64,000 nucleotides of DNA. Origin: Lineus longissimus. Its lineage: Eukaryota; Nemertea; Pilidiophora; Heteronemertea; Lineidae. Under the pieces are notes generated by a model, which had not been told where the DNA came from, searched no databases, and worked only from the letters and a program-made list of their open reading frames with translations. The position numbers were made by a program, and so were the translations under genes. The stretch covers positions 24,522,646 through 24,586,645 of the forward strand of contig NC_088311.1 of assembly GCF_910592395.1 (NCBI RefSeq), read 5' to 3'. Shown here in pieces: positions 1-63,077 of the stretch (position 1 is the stretch's first letter; each line of letters starts with the position of its first letter).

Positions 1-2976
1 ACCACATCTCAACCATCCATTTCCAGGCATTAGAAACGTCGTTAGAAGAGCCCTAAAATTGGCATGTCAACACAGATAAATCTGATAAAGAATTGAACAA
101 AAGCATGCAAACTTAAAGGAAATTTAAACTCCCACAGTTTAACCAACTCACGAGAGACAGGAACTATATCCAATCTCTATCGTTTTGAATTGCTTCTGAT
201 TATGCATTTGGACAACAAAATTGTTTTTTAAGATGTGCAGGTCCATTAATCAACATGTACTTTTTCTCAAAACACGTCATTTGGAAAACATTTTTCAAGA
301 ATTTTCCAAAGCAACTCTCTGTTTTGGGCTATCCTTCTAAAATATGAATGGTATGTATTGGGATGCCTCAGAGTCGAGTTTTCGAGTACATGTAGTAATA
401 CCTCACAACACAGCTATCTAAATGAATGTACAAATACACAAATGAGCCTCACATAAAGAGACTCAGTTATCAAATGAACCATATTACAAATTGTGGAAGC
501 TCTGACCATAAAAACAAGGCACTTATAATTACATACGTTGGAAAATAACAAAGCAATATTAAAGGCCTACGCCGTTCGTAAAAATGTTTGAATTTGTAAT
601 TGAATTTAAAAATGTGCAACATGGAATATACATACTCAATATAAATTTCAACATTTCCGTTGTGTAGACTGATATTCAAAAACAATGAATACCAAGTTTA
701 AACAAATTTGTATTCACAATAACTGCACTACAGCATTGTGTATTAGTGCATTTCTGTTTGACTGGATCACAAGTAATTACGAACGGCGTACCCCTTTAAA
801 GAGACAGTGTACATGTATCCCGGCCCACAACCTTTTCTATACAGCGTAAGTTGTTGCTAAGGTAATAAACACGATTTGCTATGTTCATTTCCTTTCATAG
901 CCCGCCATAATAGGCCAACTTTTGCATAAGGGCCTAATTCACAAAGGGTTATTATACACCTCATGTGAATCCGGCCCTGAATGCTTTAGAAAAGGATAAA
1001 GGTGTAGCTTATGAGTAAAGATTTAAATCTTAAGTTGCATCTGTGATTGCCTATATACACACCAGAGGGAGAACCTCTGAACACTGAGAGCACGATCAGC
1101 CAATGGCTCATTTTAAGAGACTAAATTCACTCCAAATAAGAGTGTGTTTTACAGTTTTAATTCATGGTGGGGTGATAAGTCTTGATTACATTGTCGAACA
1201 CATGACATCCATCAAAGCCAACATAATTAGAACACTTGAAGAAACCAAGGACACTGAGTCGATCGTCATGGAAGATTAGCCGAGACATGACAAGCTGGGC
1301 TGCATATCGACCCTGGAGCACCTATTTCTGTCTCGCCATGTTCGGTAACGTTGCTGCTTTACTTGCCGCTGACGATTTTGACGGGAGACTAAATGATTGG
1401 TACGTCCGCGCACCTCTTGGTGGCCCCCTGAAATATACGGAAGATGACAGGTTAGACAAAGTTTCTGGTGATATCTTAAGTTGAGATGACACTTGCTGAC
1501 TTCACACCAGCAATTTAGTTGGAAATATTACCTATCTACAAACAGTGTAGCAGAAGAGTGACTGCATTGTTTATCATATCTCAATATAAAAACAGTCAGA
1601 TCGTCTTTCTAAAAGATGAAACTGACACTTCAAAACAGAATGCGGCATGACCTAAACATTGTATTTCCTACAAGTTGGAACCGCCGGCGTACTGTTTACT
1701 GTACATCGGATGCATTGGACTTCCCAGTTTTCACAGGACGTATGATTGTTGAGATTCAAAGAGGGAATTGGTCCAATAATGAATCAAAAACAAGGTTAAC
1801 ATGATATGTGAGCTAAAGTAGTGGCCACAAAAAGGATGCCTCCAGTTACGATCTACATGTTGATCTAAGATCTGTCTATAAGCAAGACAAAACCCAACTA
1901 CACATCAAATAATACTCCTGCAATCGAAGAAAGAAAATCAAGCTAAGTATCCGTGTTTTCTATGGCATGCTCAGTGAAACACTCACACAATAAAGTGATC
2001 AGATCTTATCAAAAGACACCTGCCAGTGAATAGAAACAAATCCTTTGAACCCTGACAAAATAAGTGACACAGCAAAAAAGAATAACTTGTGTTGAAAAAA
2101 TTCTGTAAATAGTTCAAGGGGTGAAGGTGATTGAACCGTTTTGAGCAGAATAATGATCAAAGCGAATATTCCGTGGTCATAGAGTGCTTTCACAGTTAGC
2201 CAGAACAATGATTTGTCATGCCTGAATTGATTAATTTAAATGTTGTCATGGTCATTTGGGCTAACTTTCTTTTGTCTGTCCCCCCAGCATGGCTGGTGAT
2301 GACGTCACATGAAACCACTCTATTTTTTCTCAACTTGTATAAGTCAGTTGCTGACGGGGACCAATGACCAATGCAGAATTAAGTTTTCCACATCAGTCGT
2401 CGACCTATACTATGAATACAGCCTTCAGCCTTCATCCCTCAGCTATTGTTTCACTTTCAATCAAATGCTGAGCCTGCTACCTGACTAAGCCCAATAAACA
2501 TCAGTCTGATAAACTGAAGATCGCCTGAAAATGTCCAAATTGATGCTGAAATGTTACGTCTTTTCACTACAATCTATACTTTTAAGCATGATATCAACAC
2601 TACATGCGGAAAGCATGTCTAATATTGTTAGTTTGTAGTCCCTTGGCTGTTCTATATAGCGCTATCACTGTGTCTAGAAAAAGGATCTATCCACACCTGA
2701 AATGAGCACTGCAATTAGAATCAAATTTCAGCACACACCAAACTGTATCAGGGCCCCAAGCCTTAACTGACAGTTCACACAACCATAGGATAACCCCTCC
2801 AAACCAAGCTATGGCAGGGCATCTCAAAAGTGCATCCTAAATTGATCTGGATTCTTGTGGTTTATTCTTGAGTTTGAAGATACACCTTTGAGACACGCTA
2901 GGAACAGACTGGCAACACACATCACTTCAAGTTCACTTTACTCCCGACACAACTAAAGCCAACATTACTAGAAATT

Positions 2977-3279
2977 GAGCATTCAAGACCACTTTCTTGA
3001 GTAATGAGCATTCAAGACCACTTTCTTGAGGAATGAGCATTCAAGACCACGTTCTTGAGTAATGAGCATTCAAGACCACTTTCTTGAGTAATGAGCATTC
3101 AAGACCACTTTCTTGAGTAATGAGCATTCAAGACCACTTTCTTGAGGAATGAGCATTCAAGACCACTTTCTTGAGTAATGAGCATTCAAGACCACTTTCT
3201 TGAGTAATGAGCATTCAAGACCACTTTCTTGAGTAATGAGCATTCAAGACCACTTTCTTGAGTAATGAGCATTCAAGAC
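2977..3279. repeat. 29-bp minisatellite, about 10.4 copies
   Basis: Direct tandem repeat with a 29-bp period; the unit begins GAGCATTCAAGACCACTTTC. Copies are almost identical, differing mainly at one position (TTGAGTAAT versus TTGAGGAAT) and at one C/G (CCACG versus CCACT). The array ends with a partial unit at 3279. Such homogeneity points to recent expansion. No coding or regulatory role is visible. Confidence 0.97.
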
Positions 3280-6447: not shown

Positions 6448-27995
<21,548 letters not shown>

Positions 27996-29734: not shown

Positions 29735-32700
29735 TTAAAGAACATCATGTGTCCGCTTTCCAAAAGATGGAAGACTTGCGAAGAACCATGACTCTTTTGT
29801 ACATCTTTTCTTTGGCTCTTCCGTCTTACAAATTGCTGGCTTTGTACCCTGAAGGAATCAATGAGAAAAAGTTGAATACATCTATGTGTTTACAAGTACG
29901 TGATACAACATGTGCAACAATGTCAAGATTATTAACCGGTACATGAAAGGTTTTTGCAGTCAGAATGAAAACCTGAATAAAGGTTTCTCCTCAAGACAGA
30001 CAAGAACCCTTCACACCATTCCTCCAGGAATTTCAAATCTCTAGGAGTTTTTGTCTTTGTTGAGATCAAATTGGTGGGGGACAGAAAAGTTAGTATTTAT
30101 TTGTCAAAAATATGGCACAAGAAGTGGTGTTCTGATTGATATTATTTCACTGACCTTATAAGTATCACAGATAAGCTTGAGGAGGTTTTTCTCAGCCTCA
30201 TTTTGTATTTTTTCTGTATGTACCTGAAAGAGAAATATTCAAGTTAAAATTGAAGGATAAAAACAAACAACATTGAAGATACTGTTAGGTGGATCTAAAG
30301 ATCTTATTTGTGAACTGAGTGATTTCTCCTGGCACCTGTTGATAAATCTACTGTATCCTTGCAAGTATTCAAGTTCATAAAATGGATGAAGATGACTTTT
30401 GAAAGCTATAGCTATGTTCCTCGCAACATGCGGTTTTTCTAAACATTGTCGGTTGATCAACAGAAAGCTGAATTTTAAACCAGCTTGTTACACTGTCTCC
30501 ATTTTTCCATGATCAACAGACAAGGACCCCATCTATTTCAAAACCTAGTTGTGATAATGTCTCTCTACAGTGTCCCTCTGTGATAATGTCTCTCTACAGT
30601 GTCCCTCTGTGATAATGTCTCTCTACAGTGTCCCTCTGTGATAATGTCTCTCTACAGTGTCCCTCTGTGATAATGTCTCTCTACAGTGTCCCTCTGTGAT
30701 AACGTCTCTCTACAGTGTCCCTCTGTGATAATGTCTCTCTACAGTGTCCCTCGATCAATGGACAAGAAATCATTCTGTCCTTCACATGAACAAAGCTGAA
30801 CTGAAAGAGAGAGTACTCACCCCGTTCAATGTAACCCACGGAACATACTGATGGGCAGGTTGAAGAGCATCAGTTTTCATAGCCATCTGGTGCTCAAGTT
30901 GATTGCCCTGAGGACCGTCAGCACACTTCATAATAGCATTCAACTGGGTGATCTTAGTTTTGGTAGCGCACTGAAATAGTTGGGAAATGGTGAGAAGTGT
31001 CAATCAGAATTGGCATATTTCATGTAAGAGCAGACTCAAATGCTAGAAGTACTTTTGAACCGCACATGAAGGAACTGGGTTGGGTACATTGCCCATGGCA
31101 GTTTGAAAATTATCTCAGAAAAGTAATTGTGACAGACTTGTTTTCAGAACAATTGTAGCTAAATACTGCCTGAATCTGAGTCAAAGACTCTCCTTTTCTG
31201 TTCAGCATCAACCCTGATGATCACCAAATCTCACCTGTTTGGCAGCTTCTTTTGGATCAGTACTTGAAGCTTCCATACAGGTAATGAATGGGAAGTAGAC
31301 CTTGATATCTTTGAGTAGATGTATGGCACATGTCTGAAAATGGGGAGATGAGAAGGTCATCATTCAGTGGTTTGCAAAACTGCAACTGCTGCTATATGGC
31401 GCGGACTGTCACTAGGGTATGGCATTGTTGTGACTGAGACACAACATCAATTTCGACCAAGTTTTGACCTCGTTATGGCTGCCAGTCACGTCATTTTTTA
31501 TATCGAGTGAAAATCATTGCCACCTGTCGGGATGCCAATACCACATTGAGGTGAGTCTAAATCATGTCCTAGAGAGACATGTGATAGGATGCCTGGATAC
31601 AAAGAAGGTCAAGTACTCCCTATTGTATTATTGTGTGATCTCACGTGGAATTGCATGACTAGTGACAGTCATCTGTGAAATTGCGATCAAGTCCACCCTC
31701 AGAAATATGTCAAGTCATGGTGCATGCAATGCATTGATCAGACAGCCTTTATCCGCCTGATCAGCCTAAGAAAACTAAACACATTTGACAGGAGACAAGT
31801 GGTGATAGTGGTTTCAAGCTATTCAAATAATTTCTTATTGACTCATTGACTATACGAGTGTGTATGTTCAATGAATAATTGTCATTAAAATTAATATCCA
31901 AAAAGCTGGGCAAAACTAGGACATTACTACAGGTCTCTATAATTATACTGGGCAATTTGTTTGGGCAATTTGTTTGGGCCATTTGTGATGCAATGTAGGA
32001 GGAAGCCGGGCCTGGCGGCAACCTTTGTTAGTCCTCTCCCTCACAGGATGACGCAGTCCATGAAGGAACGGCAAAATTGCACAACTATTGACCACTCACC
32101 TCAATCACATTCCCTACACACTCCTGTTCTCCATGCTGGCAAGTAAACACATATTTATCACCACGTTTCCTCTCCTGCAATAGACGATGAGCAAAGATCA
32201 TTATACATGTACTAGGATCAATTGATAGTCCATCTAATTTTGGAGTGGTCAATTTCAAGAAAGTTTAAATCTAATTGCCTTCAAGTTCAATTCAAGACAT
32301 AGGTCCCAAGTCTCACAGAAAACTGAACTGAACTGAACATCACAACACGGGATTCTATTCATACAATGGTTCGAAGGAATGGGTCTACCTGAGAACTTGG
32401 AAGTACTGGAGTTAGACAAGCAATGAAGGCCTAAGATTAAAAACAAAATCGTTTCTGTACAAATCAAAATGCCAAAACAAATTCATGAAATTAAGACCAC
32501 TACGAGCCTGAAAGCTGGTTGGTTAAGGAGGGAATCCCAGGGTCTGGGGAATATGGATTGCATCTTAAAACAGCCACCAGTTATAAAGCAAATCCTTCCC
32601 AGAACTAGCAGAACTAGTTTCCTCACCTCAGCGTTGCCATATGGTACAAGTGTAATATTCATGATATTGCCAATGGCATTGTAAGCTGGCCCAATGTTGT

Positions 32701-33365
32701 TTTTGAAAAACATCTTGCAGAATGGACACAGTGACTCGTAGTAGAAGCCAAAGTTGACAAGTGGGGCCGCATCTCTCAGAGTCAGATGATCTCTACATTG
32801 GTCTTCAACCTGTGTAAAAATCCTAGAATTAACAATTAATTTTTCAAAAATTAAAGAGTTCTCACCTCTGCATTACCATACGGAATGAGGGTCAGGTTCA
32901 TGATACTGCCAAGTGTGTGGAACGTCTCAGTGAGTTGGTGTTGGAAGAAGAGCTTACAGTCTGGGCACAGCGATTCATAATACAAGGCAAAGTTGACAGG
33001 GGCGGCATTGGTCAATCCTGATGAGGCCAAGTGTTCCCTACAATGCTCTTCAACCTGGAGATAAAATGCGGAAATAAACTTTGATTAGTCGTGGGTGGGC
33101 GTCGCCGCGTGGCATCCGCTTCTTTGCTTCCACGGATGGATCGCTTGTCAATTACACAACACTGAACAGAGTACTGGACTGCAATATTCCTGCTCCACTT
33201 GAAAATATACTTGGAGAAAAAAGTGAAATGTTTTGGAAATATGGAATGGAAACATGCCTTGCAAAGTTTAGAGATTTCTTTGCTGCTGCACCAAAGACTT
33301 GGAGGAAAATCACAGGCAGACGATGCCCCTACAAAAGCTACAAGCAATGCTGCGATGAACTTCAT
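29735..33365 (-). CDS. IFI30: Gamma-interferon-inducible lysosomal thiol reductase (GILT), complete gene
   Basis: Reduces disulfides of proteins in lysosomes (family knowledge). Exons: 33258-33365 (signal peptide [17 protein letters not shown], then [11 protein letters not shown]), then 32866-33054 (2a) and/or 32627-32809 (2b), then 32100-32174, 31235-31333, 30821-30970, 30155-30223 and 29735-29848. The GILT signature is present as [20 protein letters not shown] precedes the C-terminus. All introns are phase 0. Length is 267 aa with 2a, 265 with 2b, 328 with both. The last exon (GTKPAIC...) was placed by homology to the human GKKPDVC segment and an ATTCCTTCAG acceptor. NLT and NIT glycosylation sequons occur in 2a and 2b. 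The first intron appears to use a GC donor. Confidence 0.93.
30550..30752. repeat. 29-bp minisatellite, 7 copies
   Basis: Seven nearly perfect head-to-tail 29-bp units beginning TGTGATAATGTCTCTCTACA. One unit has AACG in place of AATG. It lies in the GILT intron between the exons at 30821-30970 and 30155-30223, about 70 bp from the former. Confidence 0.96.
32627..32809 (-). CDS. IFI30: GILT active-site exon 2b (CPFC)
   Basis: 183 nt, 61 codons, phase 0 at both ends, with a TTTTTACACAG acceptor and GTGAGG donor. Encodes [22 protein letters not shown] and [14 protein letters not shown]. It is clearly homologous to 2a, with a different middle residue in the CXXC site and a divergent helix after it. 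It is not degenerate: the frame is open, splice sites are good, and the Cys pair and glycosylation sequon are kept, implying selection. Confidence 0.92.
32866..33054 (-). CDS. IFI30: GILT active-site exon 2a (CPDC)
   Basis: 189 nt, 63 codons, phase 0 at both ends, with a TTATCTCCAG acceptor and GTGAGA donor. Encodes [22 protein letters not shown] and [14 protein letters not shown]. The CPDC pair is the thioredoxin-like redox site. It is a paralogue of exon 2b, 56 bp further downstream in the gene. Confidence 0.92.
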
Positions 33366-34812
33366 GTCTACTTTCGGTCAAATCAGCCACGAAAATGGTT
33401 CACAAGGCCTTCAAAGAACTGACAAGTCACCATATCGGTCACAAGACTGATCCAATTACGACAGACACCGGATGACAGCATGGACTGGTGGCACTGAACA
33501 GTGCGGATGACGGCGTCAAAGGGCAGCGTCAAATTGGCCCCGGGCAACCGACACGAGGTAGTCTTTCAGTTCCAGCTGAGGCCTAATCATACATCATATT
33601 TCTGGGTTCATATGAATCCAGAGAAGAAGTCTGCAGCATTTCATTGCATTTAATTCATAAGTACACCGATAGGTGGCGCCACCTTTGACACCACTTGGAA
33701 CCTGAAAATGGTAAATAATGGCCAAAACGGACCCCGTCCCCACTGTGAAGTACTGTGTGCTCTACAAGGAGACCCGAGTTAGGCCTGGAAGAATTTCCTA
33801 GCCCAGTGTACAGAGTCGTAGAACCCCTACTCGGGCAACCCAATGAAGAGAAGTTGTTGGGGAGAATGTGACCCAAATCCCTTCAAGCAGTGAGACACCA
33901 ACTTCGGGGGAACGAGTGTGAAGGTCCAAGATAGTTGTGGTCAGTCTATACTTCAAAAAAGTTTAAAATTTCCCATGGTTTACATTTTTGACATTTTGAT
34001 ATTTTCTTGTAATGATACCTCTTCTAAGGTATTATATTTAGAAGTATATCAGAAAAGATGTCATAGTAGATATATCCAAAATAATTCTTATGTATTTAGA
34101 TTTGAAAAGTTACATTGTCTTAATAAATTAAATGATTCTTTTGATGTGATATTCCTGATATTTGTGCTTTAAACCTGGCCTGGTTGTGACCGTCTCATCA
34201 GTCATCTCTCTCACCATGCTGTCAACACGGTGGAGCAGCCAGGATTGATTCGGCCTGGCTGTGACTGTCTCATCTCTCTCATCATGTTGACAACTTGGCA
34301 GAGCAGCAAAGACTGATTTGGCTTGGTTGTGACCGTCTCATCTCTCTCACCATGTTGTCAACACGGTGGAGCAACCAGGACTGATTCGACCTGACTGTGA
34401 CTGCCTCATCTCTCTCACCATGTTGACAACTTGGCAGAGCAGCCAGGACTGATGTGGCCTGGCTGTGACTGTCTCATCTCTCTCACCTTGTGAACACTTG
34501 ATAAACATTATATCAAAAGTTACCAATAATAAACTTTGGAGACGTCAGGACAGCCTACGTAACATTACAACCAACCTCTTCCAGCTGGTTATCTGGTCAG
34601 GTTCGGAAGACATTGGCACAACCTTCAAAGGGTCCTTTAGCGGCTAACGACAACATTACACTTGACTTGCGTTCTACATGGGTGATACAAGACAACTGAT
34701 TTGGTTGTACCATGGTAATCATCTCACAAGGACAGACAATGGAACAACCAACATCTGCCAGCTGGTTATCTGATCTCACGAGACTGGTAGTGTCTATCTG
34801 ACAACTCTTTAA
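33366..34812. other. Intergenic region between GILT and the transposon
   Basis: No gene recognised. GILT promoter sequence should lie at its left. An unusually AT-rich block at about 33940-34165 has a chance open frame. A 68-bp repeat array runs to about 34488, and a diverged duplication of a CCAGCTGGTTATCTG segment occurs at about 34580 and 34757. Confidence 0.5.
34173..34488. repeat. 68-bp tandem repeat, about 4.5 copies, alternating subtypes
   Basis: Units begin CCTGGCTGTGACTGTCTCAT. Copies alternate between a TGTCAACACGGTGGAGC form and a TGACAACTTGGCAGAGC form, so the true higher-order unit is a dimer of about 136 bp. It lies just left of the TTAA element. Confidence 0.85.
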
Positions 34813-34899
34813 CACCTTCAACGTCGAACCACGTAGATCCACGTGGCCAAAAGCCCCCCTCTTTGAGCTGGTTATCGGAGTCTCGCTGAATTCATGAAA

Positions 34900-34999
34900 G
34901 AACTACGCCATCGCCATCTTCAGTGCAAGATAGGAACTGAAAAGACCAAACGGTCTTTTCAGTTCCTAGTGTGCCCTAAAGATGGCGATGGCGTAGTTC
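34900..34999. repeat. Left subterminal palindrome of the TTAA element
   Basis: Begins GAACTACGCCATCGCCATCT and ends with the complement, GATGGCGATGGCGTAGTTC. The centre is AAAAGACC-AAAC-GGTCTTTT. It can fold into one hairpin about 100 nt long. The equivalent structure at the right end has the same arms. Confidence 0.93.
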
Positions 35000-35275
35000 A
35001 GAACTTTAAAGGTCAAATGCTGAGCTATTTAACCTGTATTTGTGGTGAATTTTCATAATATGCTATCTTAAAAAAACATAATAAACCGGAAGGAATTCAA
35101 AAAATAGTGATTTTTTTGTGAAATAAGTGCTATTTGTTCAGTCCTCTGCGAGCTCGTTTTTGAAGGCGCTTTTGAAAAGACCGCCAGATGTGTAGTTACG
35201 CTATTCGCCGCTAGGTTCACATTGGTGACGTCACTAGTGCTGTCAAAGCCACGATCATTGACCACTACGCAAGTA

Positions 35276-35287
35276 AAAATGGCGGCT
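35276..35287 (+). promoter_or_regulatory. TISU/YY1-like start context of the ballast gene
   Basis: AAAATGGCGGCT overlaps the chosen start codon. It resembles the TISU element (SAASATGGCGGC), which in animals couples YY1-type transcription with initiation on very short leaders. Motif resemblance only. Confidence 0.3.
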
Positions 35288-36758
35288 GCAAGCATGGCGA
35301 GCGAAGATTGTGCGGGAGATTTGTTTGATGACGATTTGGTTGTTGATGAAGGCAATGGTGTGATTCAACCCTACATGTACGAGCCAGTAGTGGAGAGTGC
35401 GAGAGACGATTCAGATTCTTGTTCTGATTCGGGCGAAGGTGATGATGGGGAGATGGAGGATGAGCGACTTGATCGCATCGGAAATATCAATTGGTGAGTT
35501 CCAAGTGCAGTGGCAGTGCACTGTGCATGCCATGTGTATAGGCGCGGCATCAGCTGGACATTATAGGGGGCCTATGCTGATATGAGCCATGTCATCATGT
35601 GCATGTATTCATGTACATCTCTACATAGGGCTCCATCGTTCACGGATCGAGTGTTGTCAGTAAACAATTGGCGTTTTTCACCTCGAATATGTCGAAACCA
35701 CAACGTATCTTGAGTTGAGTGAGTTCATTCCACATCGTTATTTTATAGTAAGTAGGATCTCGGAATACTAAGCCTCAGGGTTTGGTAGTAGGCCTACTCG
35801 AATGTAGTGAACTCTAGGCCTAATAACTTGGATTATTACTATACTGAGACTCTTCCATTGCGGAGCATTACCAATACCACACCAAATAGTGAAATACTAC
35901 ACACGCGTAAAGACAACAGTTTATTCTCACCGTAACAACTTAAGGCGAAAGCCTTCGACAATACTACATTAATTGATTGATTGAAACAATGCTAAATCTT
36001 ACTGAGCTGAGCTCCAGGGGCCTGCCTCTCACTCAAATTTGGCCTACCCTTGGCCTGGGCCCTGATTCATTGATGGCAATGGCTATCGAAATATCATCAC
36101 TGCTGTATAACAATAACATTTATATCATACTTGTATTTGTAGGTGTCATTGTGGTGTCTGCACTCCACAAGAGAAGGGGAGGGAATCCTTGTGCTGCTCA
36201 GACTATTCACCAGTCCAGGCCAAGAAGGATGAGCTGAAAGTAGAGTGCATCACGCAACACCCAGGTTTTTCCAGCACCTGTCTTGATAGATGGGTGCTGG
36301 AAATGTCGATGTATCACTACATCGAAGAGCAGGGACAAATAGGCGATGACCAGCCCATTCACAAGTAAGTAATGATGACCACCTCCATCGCTGTATAATT
36401 GAAGACAAGAAAAGGCAATATCAATTCAGAAATGAGATTTTTTTCTCCCTTTGAAGACTAGAAATATAGAAAATAGATATAATAAAATGTATCTACATGT
36501 ATTTAGTAATAATATTACAAGTTTTCAATAAATCTAAAAAAAACTGTCAATTAAATGTACAAACATTGTTTTCTTCCCAACAATTTCAGGTTATATCGAT
36601 ACGTGGCCTATAGGAACCTTGTCCGTTGGGTTTGGAAGAGGTTGGGGAGAAGGAACCGTTTGCCGCTCCCTGTTTGTGCTCGGGACAAGATACGTGCTGC
36701 TTGGCCTGCTCCGGACAATGACGGGTACACAGGATTCAAGTATCCTACGTTCAATTGA
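35279..36758 (+). CDS. Stand-alone P2X7-type ballast-domain protein, 201 aa
   Basis: Exons 35279-35493, 36143-36364 and 36590-36758, phase-consistent with GT..AG introns. Residues 1-71 are acidic and Ser/Asp-rich (DLFDDDLVVDEG, DSDSCSDSGEGDDGEMEDE). Residues 72-201 resemble the cytoplasmic ballast domain of the P2X7 receptor. WCHCGVCTPQ...LCCSDYS (Cys 73, 75, 78, 89, 90) matches the P2X7 zinc cluster. YRYVAYRNLVRWVW matches its HCAYRSYATWRF region, and DGYTGFKYP matches the P2X7 end QYSGFKYP. No channel or membrane segment is present. The start was chosen at AAAAATGGCGGCTGC; an in-frame ATG at 35222 lies upstream. Function unknown; zinc binding is inferred. It sits inside the transposon, 60 bp from the stop of the opposing THAP gene. 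Confidence 0.87.
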
Positions 36759-36818
36759 TTTGGTGTGACCGTTCAATTGATCTGTGATAGTGAACTCTGA
36801 TGGTGCTATGAATGAACT

Positions 36819-38823
36819 CTACAGTTTGTTAAACCTCGTTTTTGTTTCTTCTACAACTTTCATCTTGTCCTGCTTGTCGTACTTTGAGCACACTGGACCT
36901 GGAATAGGATGAGTCACTTGGTACTTGTCCTTTGCATCTCTTGCCAATTTGTAAGATGGCAGGTCATCTCTCCGCTTCAGCAGGTCCTCCAGAATTAGCT
37001 GTACATAGTCTGAAAACATAAAGGGAAGTATTAATACAAGTAATCTTGTTTCTTCTTGTTTCTTGCAGTGCTAGCACTAAAGTAACGATGCTGGCCGTTA
37101 TACCTACCATATGTTGATTCAATTTTGACCTCTTTTGCTACTGCAGCTCCTCCTCTCCCCTTGGGGTATGAAATCGACCACTGCGGCTGTTCATCTTGTC
37201 CCATACGCTGTTTCCGATTTGAATTTTCATTAAAGTGGAGTGTGGCGAGCAGTAACCTGTAAAGAGAATTTGTAATACTGGCATGACTGGTCAATGCTTT
37301 CAATCAATGTTTTACTCGCCTCACGCCTTATAGTCCAAGTAGAGTGCAAGAACAAAGTTCAGTTGCATCATGAATAAGGAAAAGTGGGCTTTGATAGCAC
37401 TCACTCAAAGCATTGCATGAAATTTTTTTCGTGATTTAGTAATGACCCCTGAGAATACATTGTAGTCTATCATACCTTGCTTTCATTGGCTCATAGAAGA
37501 AATGGCGGGATTTGGGAGCGAAATAACCAACAATTTTGTGATACGACTCAAGAGATGAAGTCTGTACTCCTGGTGAAACCTTTCTGATGTCCTTGAGCAA
37601 TATCTTTTGAGTGAGAATCAGCGTAAGTTCCTTGTGGGCCTTGCTACCTGAAAGAGTAATACTGGTTTAAGTAATAAGGAACAAGGAATTAACAGGGCCA
37701 AATGACTAGCTGTTTTTCTTTTGATTGAGGGCACTCCTTACTTGTCAAGACAAATTGCATTCATAGCATGGGCTTAATTAATAATGCAGCTAATTTTTAT
37801 TACAAGATTGTGGGATTAATCCATCCTCTGATTTATTAGTCTACACTGCTCGGGACATTTATCTATGTAAATATGATCACCCAATATAACCAGTTTTTGT
37901 AGAGCCACACCCTGAAGTCAGTTAATAGTAAGCTTATGACACATGGGGCTGGGTTATGATTGAACATACTTGTGGCAAAACCTCCAAATCGTCTAAACTC
38001 TGTGGCAGTACTGCATCCTCTATCAGGTGATTGCCAACCTCCTCAAATCGGCCTTCATCAGCCATCAAAAAACCATCATCCTGCTCAGCTGCCTCCTCCG
38101 CCTCCTCTCCATACAACACGTTGTATCCCGCTACCGCCTCTGCTACAGCCTACGAAATGAGAAACAAATATTTTAAATAGAAGGCCTATCGTAATTGACT
38201 AATAGGAGTAGGACTTTTGTATTTGACTTGCTCCTACAGCTGAAGGTAGCCTAGTAGGTGCAGTCGTGCAGTATCAATTATGAAAATTATCAAGTTGTAG
38301 TCTTAAAAGGTCCTCAGGCCCCAGCAACACCACATCCTACACTTCACAATGCCTACCCCATGGTCATGCACTCGAGATGGAGGTATTCCTAGCCTAGGCC
38401 TATGGCCATGGGGTATAATTTCATACCTACTATACTGATTTCATAATAAATAATAATCACCTGCTGATGTGCCCTCTTCTGCACAGCTGACCGCGGCGCA
38501 CTGGTCGTAGGCGTACCATCCATGGCATCGCCTTCACCATGACTGAAGAGTGTAGGGAAGGCACCTGGCTTCAGCAGGCGTTTTTTAGGGTCAAATCCTA
38601 TCGCACGGCATATGGCTGGGTCCAGCAGGTAATCTCCGGCAACGAAGTGCTTCGAACATACCCTCGCACCGAGAGACGGGACCCAAGAAGACGGACGATG
38701 CATGCGTCTTACCCATACTTTTCGGGCCTTCTTGTCGCGAGGAAAATTGTAATAACCGACCCCATCTACTTTCAACACCTTCGTTGAATCACTGCTGCAG
38801 TTTGGTGCGACGCAGTAAACCAT
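36819..38823 (-). pseudogene. THAP-domain transposase-like gene, core deleted
   Basis: Exons 38461-38823, 37970-38149, 37476-37647, 37108-37256 and 36819-37009. Exon 1 encodes a full THAP DNA-binding domain: C4, C9, P28, W37, C56, H59 and the FPTLF box. Exon 2 is acidic (YGEEAEEAAEQDDGF). Exons 3-5 encode SSLESYHKIVGYFAPK and LLLATLHFNENSNRKQ, a block I recall from the 3' end of THAP-linked transposases of many animals. That block includes the last catalytic acidic residue region. The several hundred residues normally between these parts are absent. The exon 2 to exon 3 join is also out of frame (phase 0 against an expected phase 1), so the gene is probably internally deleted. Exons 1-2 could still make a short THAP protein reading through into the intron. 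Confidence 0.75.
38461..38823 (-). CDS. Intact THAP zinc-finger exon
   Basis: 121 codons from MVYCVAPNC through ARVCSKHFVAGDYLLDP and LKPGAFPTLF to a GTGATT donor. All four zinc ligands (C4, C9, C56, H59) and the invariant Pro, Trp and Phe are present. THAP fingers of transposases bind their own subterminal sequences, so the palindromic ends of this element are the obvious candidate target (inference). Confidence 0.9.
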
Positions 38824-39236
38824 TTTTGCTTTAGAACATGTAAAATAATTGGTTTTACATGGTAGGAACGGCGTGAACGCAACCAGAAAGTAGAATCAGC
38901 TGTCAGATGAATGAAAACAAAACTGGTCTCCTGTCTTGCGCAGGCATCTACAGCATGGCGTTTGTGTATGCAGGCAGTGGGATCAGTCTAACAATGACAG
39001 CACTAGTGACGTCACTCCTCATTTGGAATTCCCCAAAACCGCGAGAGTTTCCGAACGAAATACGAACTTTGCCGAAGCAAATTCACGCTGAGACAGGGCG
39101 GTTTATTTGAATTTCTTTATTCCATGCGATATTTATGCAAATAAATTTACTACATTTGACATCTAAATGTAACAAAAGGTTATCCTGATGTACTTTGATT
39201 AAGATTAGGCCTAACTTTGGCATTTAACCTTTAAAT

Positions 39237-39352
39237 GACTTCATGAAAGAACTACGCCATCGCCATCTTCAGGGCAAGGTAGGAACTGAAAAGACAAGAC
39301 GAGTTCCTACCTTGCCCTGAAGATGGCGATAGCGTAGTTCTTTCATGAAGTC
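39237..39352. repeat. Right subterminal palindrome of the TTAA element
   Basis: Arms run from GACTTCATGAAAGAACTACG to the complementary CGTAGTTCTTTCATGAAGTC. The loop region (GGAACTGAAAAGACAAGACG) is less symmetric than the left copy. The outer TIR follows to 39420. Confidence 0.93.
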
Positions 39353-39424
39353 CATGAGACTCCGATAACCAGCTCAAAGGGGAGGGGGATTTGGGCCACG
39401 TAGGTTCGGCGCTGAAGGTGTTAA

Positions 39425-44655: not shown

Positions 44656-47419
44656 TTACTGTTTGTTGACAGTGATCTGTTGAAGCAGCTGTTCACAGAT
44701 CATGAGGCATCTTGGGACATGGAAACATCCTGGAATAGGAACACGTGTACTTGTGACGAATTCTGTCTTTACTGGTGTCAGGCTGCAGTTGAACTATATT
44801 GGTTATACATGTATTACTTTTTGGCAACCAGTTATCGTACCTTTGAAAGGTCCTCCCTTGAAATCCATGCTGATGTCTCCTTGTTGATTAAGATAACCAA
44901 ACCATTCACCATGTTCTTCATCTACAAACTAATGAAATAAAACTGATTAATACTGGAATTATTTTTGTATCTTTGTTCTTGTTAATTCACCAAAGAAATT
45001 ATCTGGTGCATGCAGGCTCGATATGAATCTTGGGTGTCATGACTTTGGAAACTAAGACTCGCCGATTCCTCTACCAGTTATAGATGCGGTGATGCTTAAG
45101 TTGGATATTGTGCTTTGCTTTGTTGCTGACATGATATTACATGCTTTACACTCTTACTATTCTTTCATAACCCTTGCATTATGTTGGCCAAAACTCCCTC
45201 TCGATAAGCCAAGCCAAACTTACATGTGTATATGTGTAGTCAAACACCTGGGCAAACTTCTCCAAATACAACTGGTCCTTGGTCTTCATATACGCCATAA
45301 GGAATGCGATCATGGCTTCGTTGTGAGGCCACCAGAGCTTCATATTCCATTCAAGGATCGTAGGGGACAACCCGTCTGCATCCAACATGTAGAAGAGACC
45401 ACCGTGTTCCTTATCCCAGCCAGTTTTGAAGGGATTTAGAATGAAATTTTGTAGGGCTGTTTTCACTAAGTTTTCATCACTGTCGTTTGGAAAGTTGTCT
45501 GTGTATTCTAAGAGGAACCAACCTGCTTCTATTGCATGACCTGAAAAGGTTTCATATGAATCATAAGAACAGGTTATGAATTACACATTTCTGCACAGAA
45601 TTCTGAACAGCAATGTACCAATTACCTGGAATCATGAGTCGTCCTTGACAGCCGGGCAACTCGTCTCCATCTTGGGAGACGTTCTCAAGGATAACAGCGC
45701 CATTTCTCTGAAAGTGTCAATTCAGATTGGTTATGAAATACTTAATAGCTTCAATGTCTCTGGGTAAACGTACCCACTGCCTGTGCCAATTACAAGCAGA
45801 TAGTAACAGAAACTTGCACAGTGGCAAAATGCTACGAATGCAGAATAGTCCAGCACCTCTAGTGTCTAGATTGTGACAGCAATGAGTGTTTGAATGCAAA
45901 TATTCAGGCAATTTGTTCAAAACTTGCAAACCAACCTGAATATGTAGCTGTAACTTGCCAACACAGTGAATGGCTTTTTCTTGGTAGAATTCCAAATCTT
46001 CCTCTTTCTTGTGCCTCATGAGTTGGCTGATGACTGCTAGCAACATGAAGTGAACCCCCATCGTATTGGCCGGGACGTCCCCAGGTAGTCGACTGCCTAC
46101 AATATCGGTGTCATCAACGTCTGTCCAGAAGAATAGTTTGTCTCTCATCTTTATAGCTTCATTCTGAAGCAGACAGATATATCATGGTGAAAACAATGTA
46201 TTGTATCTGGTCTGCTGATAGGTAATCCTCTCTTGATTAGAGTGTAGCTGTCACATGCCTGCTGTGAAAGCTTTAGAAACAAACTTATGAATCTGCCTCT
46301 CATCATATATACAATGAGGAGGGTCGATGAGGGTATTAGGTGAAAATCAAGATTGGTCTTTGATAGATCAGGGTCACCCAGTATGGCTATGAGTTACATG
46401 TAGTTGACACTTAACTTACTAAGTATGTGTCATCCTTTGTGGCTATAGCCAACTCAGACATGGCCATCAAGTAGAAACACTCAGTAAATATTGTCCGTTG
46501 AATCTTGATTGGTTTGCCATCTCGAGTTAGGGAGAAATAGCAACGGTAGGTTGAGGGATCTCGTACTTTTGACATCAGAAATTTCCCGCCTAGAAACCAA
46601 AAAGTTTCATGTTGTTATCATGTGTTCCTTGGGAACTTATTGAAAGACAAGTTGTGGGAGAACTGTCAAGAGCCACATCTGAAGCCATAATAGAGAGATG
46701 AACAAACAATTTATCAATCTAACAGATCTCACATTGTGTGACTTTTCCTTCAGAGTTGTGACTTTTACTTTAGCCAAAGATGATCTCTTGACCAACCTTG
46801 AACTGCTTCTTCTAATATCTCTGGTTTCCTAAACCTCTTGATATCATTATACAGCCTGGCGTATGTCCAAACTTGACGTCCTTGAAGCCAGCAGTACTTG
46901 GTCTCATCATAAAGCTCGCCCGTCTTCCCAATGCAGTTTAGGAAGCCGCTGCAAATCAAAATGCCTGGTAACATTAAACAAAATCTTGAAGTGTCGTCTC
47001 AGAATGACACAGGGCTGGCAACAATGGAGCCACTGTGGACAGGCAGCTTGGACTCTCAGCTAGCAGCCAAGAGGTCCCTGGTTCGAACTCTACAGTTGGC
47101 TTGAGACTTCAGGCAGGTCTCTGTCAAACTTCCTGTACCTCACCAAGATGTATAAATGGTTACAGGCCTGCTTGGGTTGTAGCACAGATATGCAGCTCAT
47201 CTTAGTTCTACTGAAAGGACTTAAGGATAGACCAGGGTTAAAGTGTGGTGACAAGTCCCGCCTTGTGTGATATAGAGGTCTTCGCGTTATTGAAGAGAAG
47301 AAAGATAATCACCCATGTTCCTTGTCATGCGAATGTTTCATCCAGAAGTCTACAGTCCTGTCCAAGTCGGCTCGGATCTGATCGAAATATTCCTGGAGAC
47401 GGTCCACTACTACAGCCAT
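44656..47419 (-). CDS. RENBP: N-acylglucosamine 2-epimerase / renin-binding protein, complete gene
   Basis: Interconverts GlcNAc and ManNAc in amino-sugar and sialic acid metabolism. Exons: 47313-47419, 46797-46948, 46420-46589, 45936-46163, 45626-45707, 45224-45540, 44841-44928 and 44656-44729. All are in phase, giving 405 aa (human about 417-427). Motifs: [49 protein letters not shown] with H248, [48 protein letters not shown] and [15 protein letters not shown] with H385. H248 and H385 occupy the places of the two catalytic histidines of the AGE family. Two exons use GTTGGT donors. Start chosen at AAAATGGCTGTAGTAG. Predicted cytosolic, with no signal peptide. Confidence 0.95.
47020..47200 (+). 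repeat. Possible tRNA-derived SINE
   Basis: GGTTCGAACTC at 47080-47090 is a perfect pol III B-box. An A-box-like GAGCCACTGTGG lies about 55 bp upstream. No cloverleaf can be folded confidently, so it is not a tRNA gene. It lies in RENBP intron 1. Boundaries are approximate, and a search of the genome for further copies would decide it. Confidence 0.4.
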
Positions 47420-51174: not shown

Positions 51175-54100
51175 CTGTCAAAGACAAAGTGAGAGAATTT
51201 CGTGAGAACAACTGAGCAAAGGCTGACTTCTGTTTAAAAGATATGATACCAGTATGTCAGGAGCAGTAACACCTCAACTTCTCCTCAAGTCACCATAATG
51301 AAAATATTTAAGTCTCAGAAGATTGTGCAGCTCAACTCAAGACGATTGATCCTGTAGTGTAAACTTGCTAGAACTGATCATTTGACCTGTTGTGGCTATT
51401 TATTGAGAGTAACGCAAAAACATTTGTATTTTCTACTTTTGGTGACCTTCATATGGCATTACTTGATACTGTGTATGAAAACTGAAGGAGTATAAACATG
51501 CACATGCAAAATAGCTATCTACCTTTTCATTTCATCAAACCTAAATTCGAAATCTTCTGTTGAAACTAGCATGCATGCATACATAGACTTATTCTACGGA
51601 AAACTACAAAGTATGTAATGCTCTGTTGGTTCTACGGGTGGGGGGATTTCTAAATGGATATAAAAGCAGCAGGTTGAACGCCAATGTTTGTCAAAGAAGG
51701 CCTCTATCATAGGAGGACAGAGTAGATAAAGGTCCCCTATAAAGCTCCCAAAAATCCCAATACCCTGCGTCCCAAATGTGAGTTTCAGCAAATATTGTCA
51801 CAGGAAGATGAAATTGGAAGAAAGAGATATCTGAAATCGAAAGTAGGTCAAGAAAATGTGTATTTCATTCTTGATTCATGAGGCCTCCAAGCATCTGCTT
51901 TTTTCTTCTCCCAAATATCCTCCAGATGACCATGTTACGTCTTGATTTCAACTAATGCTAAACTTGAATCAGAATATACATCTTTTTCAAGCTGGGTCCA
52001 CACCGATTACCAAGTTTGGTAGCCACAGAGATTTTATCTTGGTGGCCACATTCCACGTGGGTTCTCTCCTGACTCACACAATGAAATGGGACGGAGCTCT
52101 CTTGGTAATACGCAGACTTCTTGGCGTTGTTCTGCTGTTACATTGGAGATGTCAAGAGGCCATATTCCCCTTGAATCAAGAAGTAAAAATGTGCGACACA
52201 CATATTACAATAGCATTACAGCACAATAGATAGAGTTAAATAACCCATGTCAACTAAAATAGCTTGTGTCAAAAGTTAAAGCCACTTCAAAAGAAGGACT
52301 GATAAATACTAAGATCAAATTAATCGAACATTATTTTCAGCAACTGTACATAAGTTTTATTCACTGTTTTCATTTGTACAAATGAGGCAATGAAGCACAT
52401 TTGCTGCTCAAGAGTACTGTTTACTGATACGAAATCTGAAACATCCACGTAACTATCACAACACATTTCCACATAACATACCACAACAACAGATGTTTAT
52501 CACCATTGGTAACAAGCTATTTTAGAAGATAGGTAGAGGATACAAGTCTAAAGTAACATGCCATCAGGCACAATATTTTGTGTTGCATAAATATGCAACC
52601 AATATAGCTTGTTACTTCTGACCAGTTCAGTGTTTAAGGGAAAGGGTCCCCTCCCTATAAAACTTAGGCAAGAAAACCTTGTCCCTGAAATGTGTATAAT
52701 AAACTGGGAACAAGGTTGTTTCATTGAATACATTTGGTGGCAAGGTGTGAAGCTGGAGGACGCAAAACCATCTCTTAAATGCAAATGAAAGAGGATTTTG
52801 AAGGAGTCATGCTGGTCTATTGGCTATGGTCTCTGACTATAGTGGTCTCTGACTATAGTGGTCTTTGACTATAGCGGTCTCTGACTATAGCGGTCTCTGA
52901 CTATAGCGGTCTCTTGACTATAGCGGTCTCTTGACTATAGCGGTCTCTTGACTATAGCGGTCTCTGACTATAGCGGTCTCTGACTATAGCGGTCTCTGAC
53001 TATAGCGGTCTCTGACTATAGCGGTCTCTGACTATAGCGGTCTCTGACTATAGCGGTCTCTGACTAAAGTGGTCTCCGACTATAGCGGTCTCCGACTATA
53101 GTGGTCTTTGACTATAGTGGTCTTTGACTATAGTGGTCTTTGACTATAGTGGTCTCTGACTATAGCGGTCTCTGACTATAGCGGTCTCTGACTATAGCGG
53201 TCTCTGACTATAGCGGTCTCCGACTATAGCGGTCTCCGACTATAGCGGTCTCTGACTATAGTGGTCTCTGACTATAGTGGTCTCTGACTATAGTGGTCTC
53301 TGACTTAGTGGTAATGATGTATCTGGTCTTATCCCCATAGTCGGCCTGACACTTGTTCATTTCTCCCACTGAAAAATGTAAAATTTACCAAAACTTTGAG
53401 TTTATTTAGAGTTTTGCAAACAAGTTTCAAGGCTTTTGGAATGTTCAACAATATGGGAGAAAGGGAAGGACACAGAAGCCGAGCTATGAACTAAACTACC
53501 CTCCAGTACTTCCATGACCAAGGAGAGACACCCGCAATCTTTCACTTGGATTCCATTCAGTCTACACTTTGCCACCAAGTAAAACTTGGAAAAGGAAGAA
53601 CGCGCACTGACAAACGACAGCTGACAATGAATGCATGGATGTTGGTGTAATGGAGCCACAACTCACACATTGTTGCCTGTTTCCATTGGTAAGCTGAGTC
53701 GTATGAAAAAAACGGAAATTTTTACGGACAGAGACAGAATGGGGGAATAATAGATTTCTTAGTTGAACCACATGTATTAAGAATGAAAAATTTTGTGAGA
53801 AATAGCTGGAATAAAAGATAAAATGTTAAGATTTGTGCATAAATTCAATATGATTCGGTGCAGAAGATATCCAAGAGCAACACACAGATTATACATACAT
53901 ACACCAGTTACAGTTCCTCTGAACACACACTTTTCGAAAGGTGGAATGTCCTCACAGAGTTAAATTACAGTTTCATACCAAAAATGAATACATTCCTGCC
54001 AGGAATTGTCAAGGAGATGGGGCATTAAGCTCCAGACATTGTTGTAATAGACAAATCTTCACCTTCACAAATTGCTTTTTTCGAACAGACATAGAGTAAT

Positions 54101-60100: not shown

Positions 60101-63077
60101 CTTGAACCACTGACAAAATTTTCAAAGTTTTCAAACCCAATTTTTGAAATTCGAATTACCAAATCACCCATGCTTATGCATGATGTGTTTGTCAGTATTT
60201 CAAAGGTCGATATATGCCATAGATTCTTGTAAACGTCTCCCAGCAATATACACAGGACAAGGAATTGAAACTTCAAGCTGTTTTCTGCAAATCACTTTTG
60301 CGACATAATACAAGGCAATGTGCAGTTGTTGCACAGAACATCCAATGGTTTTACAGTTCTAGTCATGAGCAACATCCCTTGTTGCAACATACAACTGCCT
60401 CACCACAAAATACAAACTGCACATTGCGACTGGAGCTGGTACTACTAAACACGCCAGAGCAGGTCTCCAGTGGAATGTTCAACAGATGTTGCACTCGGCA
60501 AGGGAAGTTACCTCTGACCAGAACTGTATGTATTTGATGGCTGTGAACTAAACAGCCCCTAAAATGACAAGTGATCTGTCAATCAAAGTGTGTTCTTGCA
60601 GACAAATATGATTTGACTGTGACAGATGACAAACAAAGGTCATTAAGAATGAATGGCATATATCTCTTGAGTGGCAAGTGAACATCAATGTGGTAGACTT
60701 TCTCTGGTGTTGACAAGATCTTGATCGATAAGCTCATCATGGCCAGTAAGCTAATATGTATCACTAGTTAGGCTAGCCATTGGAGTTCTAGTTTCACACA
60801 AAAACTCATTGATTGAGGCCCACTGGAACAATCTGCTTTGAGGCTGCACGAAATTTGGGGGCAAATGGATCTTAATGGGTTGAAAGCACTCTTTTTGCCC
60901 TCAAATTTCAGCCAGCAACAAAGCATTGGGGCAAGTTTTTTGTCTATATCTGGCTGTTACCAGCATAGTTTCAACCACCACTCCTGACCCGATTGCATAA
61001 GGTGGTACTGGTTGAGGAATGTTTCTTTCTTTCTAATGTATGATTTTCTATGAATGCAGTGGGCCTTTAAGACTTATTCGATTCAGATCACGCCCACCAG
61101 AGTATAGGTTCTTAAAAGGTAATAAACACACATTAGCATAAAGCTGACTGAAGGCATGAACCGGGGTCAGACATTGAAATCTGCGGGGCACAGTAGCTGG
61201 GGGTCAAATGAGTTCCAAGTTCCCAAAGTTATTCAGTGATCGTGTGAAACACAGCGTAATCTGTCTCCTCAAAAGCTACAACCAGAGATAATAATGATAC
61301 TGAGGATTCAAAGTTTGTAAAGGGCTCTGGTATATTGAGTTCAAGTTCAGGCAGATTACACTGTGTCTCATGAATTGAGTTAGGAAATTTGATATAATCA
61401 CCAAACCAAACCCAGCACCCATTACCAGAACCAATTCCTACACGTCAACCAAACCCAGCACCCATTACCAGAACTAATTCCTACACGTCAACCAAACCCA
61501 GCACCCATTACCAGAACCAATTCCTACACGTCAACCAAACCCAGCACCCATTACCAGAACCAATTCCTACACGTCAACCAAACCCAGCACCCATTACCAG
61601 AACCAATTCCTGCAAGTCAACCAAACCCAGCACCCATTACCAGAACTAATTCCTACACGTCAACCAAACCCAGCACCCATTACCAGAACCAATTCCTACA
61701 CGTCAACCAAACCCAGCACCCATTACCAGAACCAATTCCTACACGTCAACCAAACCCAGCACCCATTACCAGAACCAATTCCTACACGTCAACCAAACCC
61801 AGCACCCATTACCAGAACCAATTCCTACACGTCAACCAAACCCAGCAATAAGAGTTGAAATGCCACCCTCCTAAATCATTGTAAAGCAAATTCATCAACG
61901 AAAATCTTTGATTTTATCACAACATCTTATGTTTTACAAAAAGGTTACTGGAATGAAGTGGTAAATGACTTACAGCGTTTGTTGTATCTGCCGCCAACCG
62001 CGCGGCATATCGCGCAATCAGCCGATGTTCATCTTCAACTTTGTTGCAATCAAGGCTCTGCATTTTGCTTGGACTGAAAAACATGTCAGACATCATTAAA
62101 ATTGTTCATCACTTGGCTTAGAATATAGAGTGTTAAGGATTTTAGTTGAAATAGCATCAAAGCAGCTAATTCAGATATGATAGTCAGATTATTTCACTTA
62201 CCGAAAATACCAAGAGCCACTCCTGTATATGACACTCATTTTACCAATATATCCAGAGAACACTATGAAGTAATCCAAAGTGAATACACCAACAAGCAAA
62301 GAAATTGTCTGTGAAACACCAATGTGAAACTGAGTGTCCAAAATTCATTAATAGCAATGATGACAAATTTCATTACAGAATTTATCGGAAAGAAATTTGA
62401 ACCGAATCCATCCAATGTCATCAGTTTGTACACAAGGACTACACGGAGAACCAACTACTGTTCATCTATACTTCCAACCAAATGGAACAAATAGAATAAC
62501 AGTATAAGAATAACTTCCTAATGACACAGATTTGATATGAGGTGGACAATTGAGCATACAGATCTATCAACTGTGTATACACGAGAAACAAAGGTTTGTC
62601 TACATGGGCAGAGGGCTTGACTCAAGTAGCCTAGAAAGTGAGAGGGCCATTGAGTGGCACAATTATCGCCAATCACTGTTTACAACCGAGATAATGACCA
62701 ACCTCGATTAGGCAACCCAAAATTGTCATTTGTTTATTTATGGCAAACATAGTAAACGGTTGTTGTTTTAGACTTTATTTGTTTGTGACCTGTCAGTTTT
62801 GTTTGTGGGCCGTGTAACTATATGTCTTTTCATCCCAGAAAAGGAAACCGCTAACTCTAACCCCCAATTCTGAACATACAAGAAGAGGTGACTAAAGCCC
62901 ACAGGTTCGTCTATAATGACAGACAGCCAGCCAAGAGGACATTTCATATCAAAGGAGATCTCCGAATGACCTCACCTTTTCGTAGCTGATCCGCTGTCTT
63001 GTGACGAGAGGTCCTGGGAGTGAGTGTAGGAGCCTCCTTCATGGATGCCATTATGTACAGGGACTGGGGTCGGTGGC
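50200..63077 (-). CDS. DTN: Dystrobrevin, C-terminal ten exons (gene continues beyond right edge)
   Basis: Cytoplasmic member of the dystrophin-glycoprotein complex; binds dystrophin and syntrophins (family knowledge). Exons: 62976-63077, 61974-62073, 59901-59981, 58538-58623, 57792-57999, 57236-57512, 56991-57059, 50994-51174, 50668-50836 and 50200-50340, all phase-consistent. Motifs: [24 protein letters not shown], coiled coil [12 protein letters not shown]...[13 protein letters not shown], then [19 protein letters not shown] and [14 protein letters not shown], a Ser/Pro linker, and [20 protein letters not shown], matching human DTNA/DTNB. The tail has [10 protein letters not shown] (human AFLAQIHARK) and an acidic end. 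The N-terminal EF-hand-like and ZZ regions lie outside the window. Intron 7 is 5.8 kb. Confidence 0.94.
52823..53312. repeat. 16-bp minisatellite, about 30 copies
   Basis: Unit GGTCTCTGACTATAGC, period 16 bp, with occasional 17-bp units (TCTCTTGAC). Copies differ at a few fixed sites: ATAGC/ATAGT, TCTCT/TCTTT and CTGA/CCGA. Variants occur in runs: T-type at both ends, C-type in the middle, TTTGA types clustered near 53105-53150. This layering records local duplication events. Confidence 0.97.
54996..55140. repeat. Interspersed repeat, pogo/Tigger-like MITE copy 2
   Basis: Begins ACAGTGCAACCTCCCTTAGC and contains GTTTTGGTCCCAAATTG and CAATTTGACCTCT in register with the copy at 21180. It includes internal duplication of CACCTCTCTATTAAGGACA. 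No open frame. Family assignment from the terminal motif only. Confidence 0.5.
59901..59981 (-). CDS. DTN: Dystrobrevin 81-nt exon, possible cassette
   Basis: 27 codons, phase 0 at both ends, with GCTATTGCAG acceptor and GTGAGG donor. It encodes a Thr/Ser-rich stretch ([15 protein letters not shown]) between the ARYAARLAA exon and the first coiled-coil exon. Because it is symmetric and low in complexity, it can be skipped without harm to the frame. Dystrobrevins are heavily alternatively spliced (family knowledge). Confidence 0.75.
59982..61973 (-). other. DTN: Dystrobrevin intron with 43-bp minisatellite
   Basis: 2.0 kb between the exons at 61974-62073 and 59901-59981. The minisatellite occupies 61406-61848. 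The rest holds short chance open frames only. Confidence 0.6.
61406..61848. repeat. 43-bp minisatellite, about 10.3 copies
   Basis: Unit of 43 bp beginning CCAAACCCAGCACCCATTAC. Copies are virtually identical: two have GAACTAATT for GAACCAATT and one has TGCAAGTC for TACACGTC. Such uniformity over 440 bp implies very recent expansion or strong homogenisation. The array ends about 125 bp from a dystrobrevin exon. Confidence 0.97.

Follow-up and report, generated by a model that had tools for sequence, protein, structure and literature searches.

What carries a gene for the ballast domain of the P2X7 receptor at a locus of the nemertean Lineus longissimus? The question is raised by positions 34813-39420 of a stretch of 64,000 nucleotides (contig NC_088311.1, positions 24,522,646 to 24,586,645 of RefSeq assembly GCF_910592395.1), hereafter the window, to which all coordinates below refer; for this species there is a chromosome-scale assembly with 19 pseudomolecules (PMC8593623). 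An initial annotation, made from the letters of the sequence, had read the locus as a TTAA-type, Kolobok-like transposon with palindromic ends, carrying a P2X7 ballast-domain gene as cargo or accessory gene beside a THAP transposase relict. Our analysis supports a somewhat different answer, in that the segment 35010-39230 is likely to be a recent, internally deleted and non-autonomous Kolobok copy of the Kol0 kind, lying inside an older palindromic miniature inverted-repeat transposable element (MITE) of the TTAA type.

Kojima and Bao (2022, PMC9587614) describe elements of the Kol0 kind as coding for two proteins, a transposase and KolX, the latter folded like the cytoplasmic ballast, and derive P2X7 from a P2X4-like gene that became fused to KolX. 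The proposal that a transposon was the source of the P2X7 tail is therefore supported, and is already published in that work. So is the status of the ballast gene as an accessory gene of a Kolobok-like transposon, for which 'cargo' is too weak a word, KolX being by that description the second of the proteins that Kol0 families encode. What is new here is a nemertean, internally deleted copy that keeps KolX, which is a further example and not the discovery of the carriage. In the accessible text of PMC9587614, nemerteans are given KolobokP but not Kol0, and no earlier report of this Lineus element was found in the literature on Kolobok with P2X7 or KolX, with most subscription journals and Repbase lying outside that search.

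The forward gene encodes a P2X7-type ballast domain

The forward-strand gene, which we call KolX, is formed by three exons. Exon 1 (35279..35493) encodes the acidic N-terminal part and was placed by splice and frame analysis, with start and length as in the RefSeq relative P0001; exon 2 (36143..36364) encodes the zinc-binding part, WCxCGxC...CC, covered by the Pfam family P2RX7_C in the spliced protein; and exon 3 (36590..36758), which includes the stop codon (36756-36758), lies in an open reading frame that itself matches P2RX7_C (E 8.2e-6). Together they encode 201 amino acids with no internal stops. The C-terminal part of the protein matches P2RX7_C (PF20478) with an E value of 1.8e-15 and 57.8 bits, the cut-off being 23.5, which bears out the suggestion of a stand-alone protein like the P2X7 ballast. 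At E values up to 1, KolX has five matches among PDB sequences, four to P2X7 and one to SUZ12 (E 0.087), and the seven cysteines of its ballast region align with those of P2X7 in the PDB sequence alignment. When a profile of 15 KolX relatives (with P0001 included and the window protein left out) was run against the PDB sequences, all four matches at E up to 0.01 were to P2X7. A structure model of P0001, the 98% identical relative, has a mean predicted local distance difference test score (pLDDT) of 66.0, with 12 of the 13 ten-residue blocks in the region 61-190 at 70 or above, and each of its 14 Foldseek matches with E ≤ 0.001 is a P2X7 (best E, 1.4e-5). The C-terminal part of the window KolX thus corresponds to the cytoplasmic ballast of P2X7 by Pfam and by sequence, and also by the fold predicted for its relative.

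A search with KolX itself returned P0001, with four differences in 201 residues, and P0002 (58% identical), both of them L. longissimus proteins. The profile search returned 15 proteins, three of which are from L. longissimus (P0001, P0002 and P0009), with Tegillarca granosa, Sinanodonta woodiana and Diadema antillarum, one protein each, as the other named sources. P0001 is recorded on a contig of 17,976,742 bp, and its cluster holds five member sequences on one contig, so that the five are not a count of copies; P0001 may be another copy of the element or an allele of the same locus. In invertebrate annotations, names of the type 'P2X purinoceptor 7-like', which P0001 and P0009 bear, may point to genes of transposons.

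The convergent transposase gene is missing its catalytic middle

As the initial annotation had it, the locus holds two convergent genes; the stop codons, at 36756-36758 on the plus strand and 36819-36821 on the minus strand, are 60 bp apart. The minus-strand gene begins with an exon that holds the start codon and a THAP DNA-binding domain (38461..38823; THAP E 2e-14), followed by an exon for an acidic region (37970..38149; splice and frame analysis), and ends with three exons placed by alignment to relatives: exon 3 (37476..37647), with the motif LESYH, whose glutamate (E669 of P0006, see below) is presumed to be the last of the catalytic residues, exon 4 (37108..37256), encoding part of the tail, and exon 5 (36819..37009), with the tail end and the stop codon. 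These 3' exons match the tail of full-length relatives. In exons 1 and 2 all 181 residues are those of P0006, a near-identical relative, and the match resumes at its residue 637; residues 182-636, that is 455 of 801, are absent from the window copy. The expected place of the corresponding exons is a gap of only 322 bp (37648..37969), with stops in all three frames of the minus strand. Thus, the transposase gene of the window copy lacks its catalytic middle and keeps the THAP exons and the tail, a relict of a THAP transposase as first described. Worked out by hand, exon 2 ends in phase 0, and the phases called for by the three exons after it are 1, 2 and 1; because of this mismatch, splicing at the conserved borders would yield the THAP and acidic parts plus a few residues.

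Relatives of the transposase were sought with the two parts of the reverse gene joined by 300 X. Six proteins were found (P0003-P0008), four of them from L. longissimus, P0003 (644 amino acids), P0004 (723), P0005 (572) and P0006 (801), with P0008 from Fundulus heteroclitus. The THAP part of the window gene is 98-100% identical to P0003-P0006, which are recorded on contigs of four different sizes; P0001 and P0006, both with a longest contig of 17,976,742 bp, may share a chromosome. P0003, P0004 and P0005 each lack different parts of the core, through deletions or gene-model choices. In P0006, the THAP domain is followed by GDARCC at residue 457, TDRHS at 525, DCWH at 547, CLHG at 622 and LESYH at 668, motifs which, assigned by eye, match the order known for Kolobok transposases, namely D, D, C/DxxH, zinc finger and E (PMC9587614). 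A profile of six transposases matched just two PDB sequences with an E value of 1 or less, and these were THAP domains.

The neighbourhood of the two genes also bears on the origin of the ballast gene. The KolX frame is open throughout while the adjacent transposase gene is broken, as might be expected of a domesticated host gene that gained transposon ends by chance. We regard this explanation as very improbable: the neighbour is a transposase gene, as in the known two-gene set of Kol0, the THAP part recurs nearly unchanged in four proteins on differing contigs, and a protein 98% identical to KolX, P0001, is on record, though possibly from an allele of the same locus.

Inner TTAA ends as the probable limits of the gene carrier

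Kolobok termini follow the rule 5'-RR/YY-3' (PMC9587614), and in Xenopus AG ends are present in all ten full-length Kolobok copies, the ends of the T2-MITEs being AGGRR (PMC6004289). Ends of this kind lie directly inside the palindromes of the locus, next to two TTAA tetranucleotides, at 35006..35009 and 39231..39234, which are probably the target-site duplication of a Kolobok element. The left inner terminal inverted repeat, AGGTCAAATGC (35010..35020, plus strand), and the right one, AGGTTAAATGC when read inward (39220..39230, minus strand), agree at 10 of 11 positions and together read 5'-AGGTYAAATGC. Nine TTAA pairs are possible in the end regions, and this one is the best, the runner-up reaching 6/11. 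When the inner flanks were dinucleotide-shuffled 5,000 times, a TTAA-anchored pair of 11-mers matching at 10 or more positions arose once, and never with 5'-RR, although the block had been spotted in the inverted-repeat listing before this test was designed. The inner ends (5'-AGG...CCT-3') comply with the Kolobok rule and the outer ends (5'-CA...TG-3') do not; a TTAA duplication is present at the inner pair and also at the outer pair.

Further in, an internal inverted repeat of 21 bp, 100% identical over its 21 nucleotides, stands upstream of both genes. Its left copy (35225..35245, plus strand) lies 33 bp before the KolX start codon and contains TGACGTCA at 35226; the right copy (38995..39015, minus strand), found by the inverted-repeat search, contains it at 39007. 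Two of the four TGACGTCA sites of the window, which are CRE-like sites, are thus in these repeats. Counted from the inner ends the repeats start at 215 bp on both sides, counted from the outer ends at 412 and 405 bp. From the ends to the repeats the two sides are mostly unlike: in 20-bp steps between 35025 and 35224, the ungapped identity is 10-50%. When 35000-35290, these marks included, is aligned with gaps to its mirror region, the score is 133, the highest of 200 shuffles being 103.

Given the TTAA/AGG ends, the shuffle test and the equidistant 21-bp repeats, the gene carrier most likely spans 35010-39230 (4,221 bp) and is nested in a palindromic MITE, as judged from sequence features. Taking the outer ends as those of the carrier, which would make it a Kolobok variant with 5'-CA ends, is the less favoured reading, as the inner block has the TTAA and AGG ends and is preferred by the shuffle test.

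PiggyBac elements also use a TTAA target, and their ends begin with 5'-CCY, which fits neither the inner (AGG) nor the outer (CAC) ends of this locus. According to PMC9587614, a KolX-like protein also occurs in a small number of piggyBac families, so that a piggyBac element, or one of another TTAA superfamily, that had gained KolX and the THAP gene would offer another source. This seems to us barely credible: by the same account, most of the seven cysteines are missing from those proteins, while all seven align with P2X7 here, and P0006 follows the Kolobok motif order, with no piggyBac family among its Pfam matches up to E 0.1.

The outer ends recur on a gene-free palindromic MITE

The outer TTAA tetranucleotides, at 34809..34812 and 39421..39424, enclose 4,608 bp (34813-39420), and both were read directly, the left one also being part of an inverted-repeat pair. 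Inverted-repeat and fold tests agree with the first description of this boundary, with TTAA on both sides, inverted ends and a palindrome at each end. The outer ends form one inverted pair of 22 nucleotides, TTAA included, at 91% and a second of 85 nucleotides at 89%, and the two outer pieces aligned against each other are identical in 72 of 93 columns. The left piece (34813..35005, plus strand) has its palindrome at 34900-34999, which, folded as 34893-35006, reaches -46.8 kcal/mol (z -15.2); that of the right piece (39235..39420, minus strand), at 39237-39352, reaches -60.1 kcal/mol (z -19.7). None of 200 shuffles was equally stable in either case.

These ends recur elsewhere in the window. 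At 11491..11763 there is a gene-free palindromic MITE of 273 bp, both TTAA included, whose first 12 bases at each end are those of the outer ends, which is too short for the genes and which folds at -139.7 kcal/mol (z -27.6; none of 200 shuffles equally stable). With up to two mismatches the outer 12-mer has 15 matches in the window, where 9.5 are expected and 6 of 100 shuffles reach 15; only the four exact matches were used. The segment 34809-34999 is 88% identical to MITE positions 11491-11681 over 191 bp, and 39237-39424 is 90% identical to 11570-11763. The recurrence of the outer ends on a gene-free MITE weighs against taking 34813 and 39420 as the ends of the vehicle, as the initial annotation did, and the inner ends at 35010 and 39230 suit Kolobok better. 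A copy with the same terminal repeats and no ballast gene had been named in advance as evidence against the proposal as a whole; this MITE is such a copy and does speak against the outer ends as those of the vehicle, but, being without any gene, it leaves carriage by Kolobok unharmed.

The outer pieces are probably the left and right parts of one palindromic MITE that hosts the transposon. Toward the carrier, each outer piece is 79-82 bp short of the full MITE, and the left and right features of the MITE are kept in one orientation, which makes a single interrupted unit likelier than two independent MITEs flanking the carrier.

Several observations count against a deleted Kol0-type carrier nested in a MITE, in addition to the order in which the inner ends were noticed and tested. 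The left piece corresponds to positions 1-191 of the MITE and the right piece to positions 80-273, so that both hold the palindrome core; this excludes a clean split of the known MITE and calls either for a longer, double-core MITE or for outer and inner parts that move together. Nesting requires the double-core form, and none was seen in the window. As DNA, the element is known from one copy, that of the window, and P0001 and P0006 are known as protein records, not placed between inner or outer ends. The Pfam transposase matches of P0006 (Mutator, E 0.0013; MULE; ISL3) are under the cut-offs, and the structure model of the transposase, at a mean pLDDT of 35.3, is unusable. Finally, from weaker splice donors at 37966 and 37941 the frame of exon 2 would run on into exon 3 or exon 4, giving THAP plus tail, which makes the THAP-only product uncertain; under either splice choice the predicted product is without the transposase core.

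The core on both sides is accounted for, with no need of a double-core MITE, if 34813-39420 moves in its entirety, with 5'-CA ends and with terminal inverted repeats that are long and palindromic, either as a Kolobok variant whose ends are atypical or as a composite of MITE and Kolobok. Joined to the right palindrome and end, the left outer piece gives 267 bp that match the MITE in 244 of 275 columns (235 of 275 when the join is made through the left palindrome), as if the MITE were a deletion between the palindromes; such joins would, however, fit core loss by recombination under the nested arrangement and under the outer ends alike. A single unit would break the Kolobok rule with its 5'-CA/TG-3' ends, would hold inside it a second TTAA pair with ends that obey the rule, and would have its 21-bp repeats equidistant from the wrong ends, and we consider it rather unlikely, if a serious rival. 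No inner TTAA was found when one was looked for in the MITE at 11491-11763.

Two further observations concern the outer ends and palindromes. Just beyond the left outer end, 32-nucleotide near-copies at 34567-34598 and 34744-34775, 177 bp apart, have AGCTGGTTATC (at 34583 and 34760) in common with the outer ends; three of the six query and strand alignments score 28-30, with shuffle maxima of 23-24 in 200 shuffles, and the remaining three (15, 16 and 23) are not above their own maxima. The sequence TNNGGGCA, a THAP1-like motif, is present in five of six palindrome arms but is not enriched in the window (23 occurrences, 24.5 expected); no report of it turned up in the literature searched, and it was given no weight.

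A probable deleted Kol0-type copy and its possible mode of spread

The window copy resembles Kol0 elements with KolX (PMC9587614) in its TTAA target, 5'-RR inner ends and the pairing of a transposase gene with a KolX of ballast fold, and its full-length relative P0006 has D, D, DxxH, zinc finger and E by motif. KolX with the ballast fold as a second protein, the trait of the Kol0 lineage, is found in the window protein and its relatives; the placement made here is one by ends, gene content and the motif order read by eye in P0006. The window copy differs from Kol0 in its missing catalytic middle, its probable nesting in a palindromic MITE and its nemertean host. The Kolobok elements and T2-MITEs of Xenopus are alike in having a THAP domain, a DDE and zinc-finger transposase, a TTAA target and short AG ends (PMC6004289). 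The window MITE, in contrast to the T2-MITEs, is palindromic with 5'-CA ends and is for this reason probably not derived from the element described here.

On the nested arrangement, intact members of the family would encode a THAP-DDE transposase together with KolX as an accessory ballast-domain protein. The deleted carrier would have inserted into a TTAA of a palindromic, possibly double-core, MITE, whose parts now form the outer 'ends', and it would very likely have been moved in trans by the transposase of full copies. There is about an even chance that KolX is no passenger but has a role in trans, helping or regulating as a zinc-binding protein. Since KolX is kept and the transposase lost, its role as helper, regulator or passenger is open to a simple test.

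KP proteins are truncated THAP products of P elements that compete for the ends of the element and lower its transposition; KolX is not known from P elements. The Drosophila P and KP elements share with the window copy an internal deletion that spares the THAP part, as well as short ends with an internal inverted repeat further in (P layout in PMC7313671). They belong to another superfamily. For the window copy, reading frames and splice sites were examined. By analogy, the core-less THAP protein of the window copy, if transcribed, might compete for the ends of its element as KP does, a suggestion that we hold doubtful.

P2X7 shares with KolX the zinc-binding cysteine domain of its ballast, as does nanor, and differs in being a channel fusion (Rump et al., 2020, PMC7016195). 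The word stem 'transpos' is absent from the accessible text of that paper, and nanor is regarded by Kojima and Bao as a domesticated KolX (PMC9587614). The locus described here, a very recent case of a ballast gene in a TTAA transposon, is in keeping with the origin of the P2X7 tail from a transposon, as already published. A bolder suggestion, which we think unlikely, is that deleted copies that keep KolX form a spreading class of their own, having shed the core, retained the THAP part as a competitor and kept KolX under selection, here as the interior of a palindromic TTAA MITE in a possible composite. If so, the ballast gene would be spread by elements that produce no transposase themselves, and these would take the place of full transposons as a likely vehicle for the capture of the ballast exon by a P2X4-like gene.

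Surroundings of the element

An Rfam scan and a tRNA scan each gave no matches. Among the 12 of 27 long open reading frames that were scanned, the nearest recognized genes on either side of the locus are represented by an exon of a GILT-type thiol reductase gene (32483-32872, minus strand) and one of an N-acylglucosamine 2-epimerase gene (45179-45580, minus strand). A weak match to the PH domain of the kinase MRCK, at 8436-8915 on the minus strand (24.6 bits, cut-off 27), is perhaps part of a kinase gene. Tandem arrays are present at 2976-3279 (29-bp unit), 26621-27048 (31 bp), 30550-30752 (29 bp), 34202-34491 (68 bp), 52828-53305 (16 bp) and 61404-61847 (43 bp).

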